The notes under the pieces were generated by a model. It ran no database searches. It had not been told where the DNA came from and worked only from the letters and a program-made list of their open reading frames with translations. A DNA stretch of 21,450 nucleotides from Candidatus Tectimicrobiota bacterium (GTDB lineage Bacteria; JACPSX01), in the NCBI GenBank assembly GCA_016193065.1, contig JACPSX010000007.1, forward strand, positions 1 to 21,450, in the 5' to 3' direction. This document shows, one piece after another, positions 8,917 to 21,450 of the stretch (positions are counted from its first letter, which is position 1; every line of letters begins with the position of its first letter). The position numbers and the translations under genes are program-made.

Positions 8917-8945
8917 CTGCACCGGACATCCGTACCCCGGTTCAG
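8917..8945. terminator. Hairpin between convergent pntB and the nor operon
   Basis: CTGCACCGG (8917-8925) and CCGGTTCAG (8937-8945) are inverted with a single mismatch around an 11-base loop. The hairpin lies between the two stop codons and slightly overlaps the PsiE-family stop. No T-run follows on either side, so intrinsic termination is only possible, not shown. Confidence 0.4.
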
Positions 8946-9529
8946 AAGATGGCGGTGGATCCTCCGTGCTTCCTTAGAACCACGATGGAGACCACGAGCA
9001 CGAGGACGAGAAGGGTGAGGAGGCCCATCTCGATCATCGCCATCCGAAAGAGTTCGGCAGGGACCTCCGCCAGGTGCCAGACCTCCGCCGTGAGGATCAA
9101 GATGCGGCGCACGGCGGCAATGAGCCCCACGACCAGGAAGGGCTCGCAGGCCAGACTCTTCTCCACGAAGGAAACCCGCACCGTGTAGAGGATCTCTACC
9201 ACCATGAGGGTGATCAACAGGCTGTCAATCACCCCGATGGCGTTAAATTGCGCGCGCTGCCAGAGAACCCCGGAGACGATTTTCACCCCGGCGTCCCAGA
9301 GCAAGGCCAAGGCCGTAATCGCCAGCAAGACCCCAATGATCGCGTAAATGCCGTCCTCGCCGCGGTCGATCCAGCGCACGAACCAGCCGCGGAAGGACCT
9401 GTCCTGCACCCGGAAGCCGGGTACCCGGTCGAAGGGCCTGTCCTGAGCAGAGTCGAAGGGCTCAGGACGAGCGGCGGGGTCGAGGGGCGTGCCCTGAGGG
9501 CGTTCGAAGGGCTTGTCCTGGGAAGTCAT
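8942..9529 (-). CDS. PsiE-family membrane protein, third gene of the nor operon
   Basis: The protein has 195 residues. Positions 58-188 match the PsiE (phosphate-starvation-inducible E) membrane family: four hydrophobic segments at about 62-82, 97-117, 130-148 and 163-185, with VVEILYTVRVSFVEK and LVVGLIAAVRRILILTAE between. Biochemical function is unknown for the family. The first 50 residues are not part of it: they are low-complexity and composed of related units (QDKPFER, EPFD, AQDRPFDR, VQDRSFR) encoded by a GC-rich repeat. The ATG overlaps the norB stop in an ATGA junction, so the protein is translated with nitric oxide reductase. That linkage suggests a role in assembling or serving the NOR complex, which is inference. 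Confidence 0.8.
   Translation of the reverse strand: MTSQDKPFERPQGTPLDPAARPEPFDSAQDRPFDRVPGFRVQDRSFRGWFVRWIDRGEDGIYAIIGVLLAITALALLWDAGVKIVSGVLWQRAQFNAIGVIDSLLITLMVVEILYTVRVSFVEKSLACEPFLVVGLIAAVRRILILTAEVWHLAEVPAELFRMAMIEMGLLTLLVLVLVVSIVVLRKHGGSTAIF
9391..9520. repeat. In-frame palindromic repeat cluster inside the PsiE-family gene
   Basis: TCGAAGGGCCTGTCCTG (9429-9445) and TCGAAGGGCTTGTCCTG (9504-9520) differ by one base. Related units begin at about 9391, 9453 and 9480. GTCCTGAG (9440-9447) and CTCAGGAC (9461-9468) form a perfect inverted repeat with a 13-base loop. All units are separated by multiples of three, so the host frame stays open and reads as PFD/QDRPF peptides. The pattern resembles palindromic elements known to spread inside reading frames. 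Confidence 0.7.
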
Positions 9530-20420: not shown

Positions 20421-20595
20421 GTCAAAAAGGTCCCAGATGCGAGGCGCGCGAGAAATCGACGACCTGTCTGCGTGCGGACCTGTCTGCCGTGTCGGCACAG
20501 GCAGGCACGCACAGGCAGAGCGCAGGCGTACCTAAGAAGTACGTCGGAGCGAGGCGGTCGAGCGCAACGAAGCAGATGGGCCTTTTTCAGTTGAC
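20421..20595. repeat. MITE-like element with inverted ends and nested palindromes
   Basis: The left end GTCAAAAAGGTCCCAGATGC (20421-20440) is an imperfect inverted match of the right end, which begins GCAGATGGGCCTTTTTCAG at 20572. Inside are near-palindromes made of CCTGTCTGC and GGCAGGCACGCACAGGCAG words (about 20462-20520), and CGTAC-N7-GTACG around 20527-20543. From memory, sequences with the ...CAGATGGGCCTTTTTCA... end are dispersed in several environmental bacterial genomes. No coding gene is contained. The inner CCTGTCTGC block may be a second repeat nested in the first. Confidence 0.6.
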
Positions 20596-20734: not shown

Positions 20735-21450
20735 ATGGGCTTCTACCAATTTCGCGGCGAGAACCGGGAATGGACTGACCGGGAGGTCGTGGGCGAGCGG
20801 CCGCTGACGATCAACGTCAACGGTAAGGAGCTCGTCCGCTTCCTGTGCACCCCGGAAAAGCTCACGTACCTGGTCGAACGGCCGCTGACCATCAACGTCA
20901 ACGGCAAGGAGCTCGTGCGCTTCCTGTGCACCCCGGAAAAGCTCACGTACCTGGTCGTCGGCTTTCTATACTACGAGGGGATCATCCAGGGGATCGAGGA
21001 CCTGCTCATGGTCCGGGTCTGCGAGGAGGACGGCGTGGCCGATGTGCAGATCGAAGGGGAGCTGTGCCTGCCTGAAAAGAAGGCCATCACCTCGGGATGC
21101 GGTGGGGGGGTCACGTACAATATTGACTTCAGCGCCCAGTCTCTGGAGAACGTAGCCTGCGAGGTGACCCCGGAGCAGCTCTTTGACCGCATGGCGGATC
21201 TCTACGAGCACGCCGTCAAGTACAAAGAGACCCGCGGGATTCACACCTCGGCCCTGGCCACCCCGGATGCGCTCCTGGCCTATGCGGAAGACGTGGGGCG
21301 TCACAATACCCTGGACAAGCTCATGGGGGAATCCCTCCTGCGACGGTTCTCCGGCCGCGCCAAGATCCTTCTTTCCTCGGGGCGAATCTCTTCCGAGATG
21401 CTCTTGAAAGCAGCCAAGATGCGGGTCCCCATCGTGGTCTCGCGCACCTC
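20735..21450 (+). CDS. fdhD: FdhD-family sulfurtransferase (partial, runs off the window)
   Basis: FdhD moves sulfur to the molybdenum cofactor of formate dehydrogenase. The first 238 codons are in the window; the end is missing. Family segments: ERPLTINVNGKELVRFLCTP, VGFLYYEGII (75-84), ITSGCGGGVTY with C122, GIHTSALA (168-175), EDVGRHNTLDK (185-195) and SSGRISSEMLLKA (214-226). The loop is C-G-G-G, not CxxC, so only one of the two cysteines of E. coli FdhD is present; this variant occurs in other lineages. Residues 21-47 are repeated as 48-74, which a normal FdhD lacks. The start has GAGGGGGACC immediately before ATG. Formate dehydrogenase genes probably lie beyond the window. Confidence 0.93.
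   Translation, partial: MGFYQFRGENREWTDREVVGERPLTINVNGKELVRFLCTPEKLTYLVERPLTINVNGKELVRFLCTPEKLTYLVVGFLYYEGIIQGIEDLLMVRVCEEDGVADVQIEGELCLPEKKAITSGCGGGVTYNIDFSAQSLENVACEVTPEQLFDRMADLYEHAVKYKETRGIHTSALATPDALLAYAEDVGRHNTLDKLMGESLLRRFSGRAKILLSSGRISSEMLLKAAKMRVPIVVSRT
20795..20956 (+). repeat. 81-bp tandem duplication inside fdhD
   Basis: Copy 1 is 20795-20875 and copy 2 is 20876-20956. They are in frame, 27 codons each, and encode identical peptides from ERPLTINVNGK to LTYLV. Four of 81 bases differ (GAG/GAA, ACG/ACC, GGT/GGC, GTC/GTG), all at third positions and all silent. Confidence 0.95.

Follow-up and report, generated by a model that had tools for sequence, protein, structure and literature searches.

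The gene for the formate dehydrogenase accessory sulfurtransferase FdhD at the end of the window (the whole stretch of DNA that was analysed, 21,450 bp, which is all of contig C291) contains an 81-nt unit twice, head to tail, and both copies translate to the same 27 residues (ERPLTINVNGKELVRFLCTPEKLTYLV). This repeat is probably an assembly artefact, in which two strain versions with an inexact overlap of 81 bases were joined end to end. The contig is one of 294 in a 2.90-Mb draft genome (86% complete, 0.95% contamination), which is the sole representative of its phylum among the genomes searched. The relevant features are:

20735..21450, plus strand: fdhD (formate dehydrogenase accessory sulfurtransferase), ATG at 20735, PF02634 and TIGR00129 above cut-off
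20795..20875, plus strand: copy 1 of the 81-nt (27-residue) unit, running on from the normal FdhD N-terminus
20876..20956, plus strand: copy 2 of the 81-nt (27-residue) unit, running on into the normal remainder of FdhD
20875..20876, no strand: junction without Ns, the putative end-to-end join of two strain versions
21089..21109, plus strand: TSGCGGG sulfur-transfer loop with Cys122 of the printed protein, untouched by the repeat

The fdhD frame is open from its ATG to the contig end at 21450, where the gene is truncated 494 bp beyond copy 2. The product (P0001) comprises 238 residues as encoded before that point, and its C-terminal end is absent because the contig stops. A GAGGGGG upstream of the ATG is a plausible ribosome-binding site. 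The product scored 201.3 bits against PF02634 of Pfam (cut-off 27.2) and, despite the missing C-terminus, 158.3 bits against TIGR00129 of NCBIfam (cut-off 140.9). It resembles the FdhD/NarQ family (2PW9 of Desulfotalea psychrophila; 4PDE, E. coli FdhD with GDP) in profiles, fold, and the motifs TSGCGGG and EDVGRHN, but differs in the 27 residues repeated near the N-terminus and in the missing C-terminal end. C122 in TSGCGGG is nearly invariant in a 24-sequence alignment, and we take this loop cysteine to have the sulfur-transfer role. Molybdopterin-oxidoreductase genes are numerous in the genome (18 PF00384 matches). No second fdhD or donor copy was detected elsewhere in the genome, even at E values up to 10, and a search for the remainder of fdhD, or for a contig overlapping its 3' end, found neither.

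The first-pass annotation had described tandem copies at 20795-20956 that encode the same 27 residues and differ by four silent third-position changes, and these coordinates and counts are exact. The mismatches fall at unit positions 3 (GAG/GAA), 15 (ACG/ACC), 30 (GGT/GGC) and 42 (GTC/GTG), corresponding to a divergence of 4.9%; the last 39 nt of the unit are free of differences, so that all four lie in the first 42 nt. Tandem Repeats Finder reported this repeat as the only tandem array in the window (score 301, period 81). At the junction, CTCACGTACCTGGTC is followed directly by GAACGGCCG; there are no Ns around it in the window, and a search of viral contigs with the junction sequence gave no match. 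The unit boundaries, TGGTCG and TGGGCG, have five of six bases in common (0.036 by chance for a similarity of 5/6 or more at two such points).

The window contains further repetitive sequence of other kinds. Two pairs of diverged direct repeats (77-78%) lie at 15887-15987/17930-18030 and at 15399-15456/15998-16055, the latter pair coding for similar tetratricopeptide-like segments in two adjacent minus-strand genes, which we take, recognising them from sequence only, to be sulfatase-modifying-factor-like and tricarboxylate-transport receptor-like. The minus-strand frame at 8942-9529 includes, close to the N-terminus, the peptide PFDSAQDRPFDRVPG, which has the look of a short dispersed DNA repeat that was inserted in frame. 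Upstream of fdhD, at 20462-20532, lies a dispersed REP-like element of ~70 bp with arms rich in CTGTCTGC/GCAGGCAG, of which about ten further copies at 83-100% identity and additional fragments occur elsewhere in the genome.

Random substitutions in the 81-nt unit are silent in 26-32% of cases. If either copy were neutral, the probability that all four of four differences are silent would be 0.005-0.010, which argues against neutral decay of a copy and confirms in quantitative terms the earlier claim that a neutral duplicate should show replacements. Under ordinary purifying selection (omega 0.05-0.1) the same probability is 0.37-0.66, so that an all-silent pattern is what any pair of alleles of a conserved gene would be expected to show. 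Consequently, the pattern does not separate two selected copies in one genome from alleles of different strains.

FdhD matches were found in ~96 genomes across the domain, none of which shows the repeat, and the homologues that were read residue by residue are all single-copy. We compared 35 fdhD loci at 44-54% identity, from genomes labelled Bacillota, Deltaproteobacteria, Chloroflexi and others; no relative closer than ~50% identity was available for comparison, because the phylum is represented by one genome among those searched. Most homologue alignments start at residue 38-50, that is, in or just before copy 2, and several weaker ones start later; those that reach the unit carry on from copy 2. 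Three genomes with matches starting further N-terminal (G034, G244 and G265) were considered as carriers of the repeat and were all single copy on inspection. The single-copy proteins L206, L207 and L209 align from their own N-termini into copy 1. Comparison with the single-copy relatives that align best, such as L206 (YRYENGRFEQFERPVVREQPLTILVNGKELATFLCTPVKLDCLTLGFL), shows copy 1 in continuity with the usual N-terminal sequence and copy 2 in continuity with the rest of an ordinary FdhD. Judging from these alignments, the change in fdhD is one clean tandem copy, apparently private to this sequence.

The FdhD protein with the repeat was modelled with AlphaFold2 from a shallow alignment of 24 sequences. 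In the model, copy 2 is placed at pLDDT 90 or more as strand, strand and helix start in the normal hairpin position, and copy 1, at pLDDT ~54, forms an extra N-terminal hairpin outside the FdhD fold. The model matched 2PW9 with Z 20.8 over 185 residues and 4PDE with Z 19.6 over 202 residues; the VIA-align rows below these two were discarded as evidence on the repeat, since most are deaminase-like folds whose match is confined to the C-terminal domain. A single-copy control model (L018) has the strand-strand-helix arrangement likewise, at the place of copy 2. The N-terminal hairpin before the first helix, which is usually single and is not a formal criterion of the FdhD/NarQ family, is present in one copy in the homologues and in the control model and is encoded twice in this assembly. 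According to the model, the added segment need not break the FdhD fold; the model shows neither the existence nor the function of that segment, and tolerance of an extra segment by AlphaFold2 is not a test of stability. The earlier suggestion that FdhD has gained an extra strand pair agrees with the modelled hairpin of copy 1, itself of low confidence, but no homologue shows such an addition and the suggestion is weakly supported.

The evidence that points to an assembly origin comes from the ends of other contigs in the same draft. Among 179 contig ends from a sample of 100 other contigs (~0.88 Mb), we identified seven dovetail overlaps that reach both contig termini (63-611 bp, 79-98% identity) and one co-terminal pair. 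The clean overlaps diverge by 2.0, 6.5, 9.7 and 10.3%, a range that includes the 4.9% between the two fdhD copies. The overlap of L064 and L111 spans 393 bp with eight mismatches and changes 3 of 130 residues, and merging the two contigs gives one DsrK frame: L064, which includes among others a dsrB-like gene and dsrC, stops ~170 residues into dsrK, and L111 starts within dsrK, extends the frame 367 residues past the overlap and continues with DsrO/DsrP-like genes. DsrK and DsrC were confirmed by NCBIfam models, and the dsrB-like, DsrO-like and DsrP-like genes are presumed to be such by their sequences alone. L064 and L111 hold a single locus in two diverged versions. L069 and L116 overlap by 93 bp, where the nine mismatches all fall in third positions, the 30-residue protein is identical and the merged frame is continuous; had these two contigs been abutted instead of kept apart, a tandem copy of roughly 93 bp with silent differences only would have resulted. 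This overlap is the signature of the fdhD repeat, seen before joining. Two further overlaps of a similar kind measure 116 bp, with 12 mismatches and 3 of 38 residues changed (L135/L142), and 570 bp at 93.5% identity (L114/L145). The overlaps L098/L102 and L100/L150 could stem from dispersed repeats; of the seven dovetails, two or more (85% and 79%) may have this origin and not be alleles.

As a separate observation, the sulfite-reduction (dsr) cluster with dsrB-like, dsrC, dsrK and other genes is split over L064:1-6192 and L111:1-3843, in a bacterium whose phylum has no other representative among the genomes searched.

We infer that the fdhD locus is one such overlap, joined without Ns. In the sampled population fdhD would exist in two or more strain versions, ~5% apart in the 81-base stretch, with nearly all differences silent. 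One assembled piece would have ended at 20875, inside version A, and the following piece would have begun at 20876, within version B and 81 bases back along fdhD. If the two pieces were then abutted with the inexact 81-base overlap unrecognised, the stretch would appear twice with silent differences, and the organism itself would have an ordinary single-copy FdhD with the usual single N-terminal hairpin. There are published parallels. Chen et al. 2020 (PMC7111523) describe a metagenome-assembly error in which Ns are inserted although the flanks overlap, so that duplicated sequence remains; duplicate sequence is likewise left here where joined pieces overlap, and this assembly has unmerged overlaps, but the published errors have Ns between the duplicates and the fdhD junction has none. 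False duplications have also been described to arise where diverged haplotypes are placed next to each other (PMC9516828); there, too, two diverged versions of one locus stand adjacent as if paralogous, although those cases concern diploid animals and ours would concern bacterial strains and only 81 bp.

Several observations bear on the assembly explanation from both sides. Diverged versions of one locus do occur at contig ends (dsrK in L064/L111; the silent-only 93 bp of L069/L116), the relatives are single-copy, if distant at ~50% identity, and the repeat lies 0.5 kb from a contig end. Against the artefact, the reading frame is intact across the junction (1 in 3 by chance), the boundaries are 5/6 alike, as slippage would predict, and the junction lacks the N gap that is typical, though not required, of such joins. 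Thirteen short N gaps in the sampled contigs indicate that the sequences are scaffolds, and the known scaffold joins in the assembly have 2-70 Ns; none of the 13 gaps has duplicated sequence at its flanks, which weakens the join explanation and does not remove it. The dovetails that may be dispersed repeats count on the same side, as does the density of tandem copies in the draft, which is not raised, with five tandem units (≥30 nt) over 879 kb compared to four in 400 kb of five complete genomes, where the cases are mostly in repeat proteins or low-complexity DNA. A raised density as a sign of artefact was therefore dropped, and density is in itself no evidence either way. The other tandem copies in the draft have few boundary bases in common (0-3). 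At L151:6120-6305 the gene for an unnamed protein contains an in-frame tandem copy of 93 bp that differs at one silent site, a feature of the fdhD type; an exact 37-bp copy splits a group II intron reverse transcriptase frame (L079:1860-1933), an exact 64-bp copy shifts a frame (L148:2709), and a 30-bp copy lies in a lipid A acyltransferase-like gene (L136:3302). The exact 37- and 64-bp copies break frames, so not every tandem copy in the draft belongs to a functional gene, a point in favour of the artefact.

It is conceivable, if unlikely, that the repeat is a genuine in-frame duplication that arose by slippage between TGGTCG and TGGGCG, with both copies since under purifying selection (dS ~0.19), so that only silent changes accumulated; copy 2 would then be the usual hairpin with the start of the first helix, and copy 1 an added N-terminal hairpin. 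The preserved frame, the four silent changes (0.37-0.66 likely under ordinary constraint), the short imperfect homology at the boundaries, the junction without Ns, the retention of the FdhD fold by AlphaFold2 with the added segment outside, and the further in-frame copy in L151 (93 bp, one silent change) all agree with such an origin. However, the duplication is absent from every homologue examined, an 81-bp repeat would have to persist undeleted while a dS of 0.19 built up, the modelled pLDDT is ~54 for copy 1 compared to 90 or more for copy 2, and the same pattern occurs as a contig-end effect in this assembly. We consider it very unlikely that a diverged allele fragment was instead acquired in a real cell by unequal or homology-assisted recombination, as a recent true copy whose differences predate the event. 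This would explain the silent-only differences without long retention, and diverged versions of loci coexist in the draft, but both end points would have to fall inside 81 bp, the flanks bear no sign of an imported tract, and the predictions are those of the assembly explanation with one event more. That the repeat is an established domain variant of an FdhD sub-lineage is extremely improbable: in its favour is only that the relatives compared reach no closer than ~50% identity, and against it that neither the ~96 genomes with FdhD matches nor the 35 loci at 44-54% identity show a repeat, with G034, G244 and G265 single copy. Of the three readings offered by the first-pass annotation (selection on both copies, a recombined related allele, or misassembly), the one that two alleles were brought together by misassembly is thus the best supported, because contig ends of this draft overlap their neighbours as diverged, often silent-only versions.

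Taken together with the contig-end overlaps, the fdhD repeat carries a warning for drafts from mixed populations, in which a silent-only tandem copy has the look of two strain alleles joined end to end, so that selection on both copies should not be inferred before a check of the reads. A real duplication kept by selection, in which a second copy of the first hairpin has been conserved residue for residue over ~0.2 silent divergence, perhaps as an extra contact surface for formate dehydrogenase or cysteine desulfurase, seems clearly improbable to us; if the duplication is real, FdhD would be an unusual case of an enzyme that tolerates and conserves an exact internal repeat.
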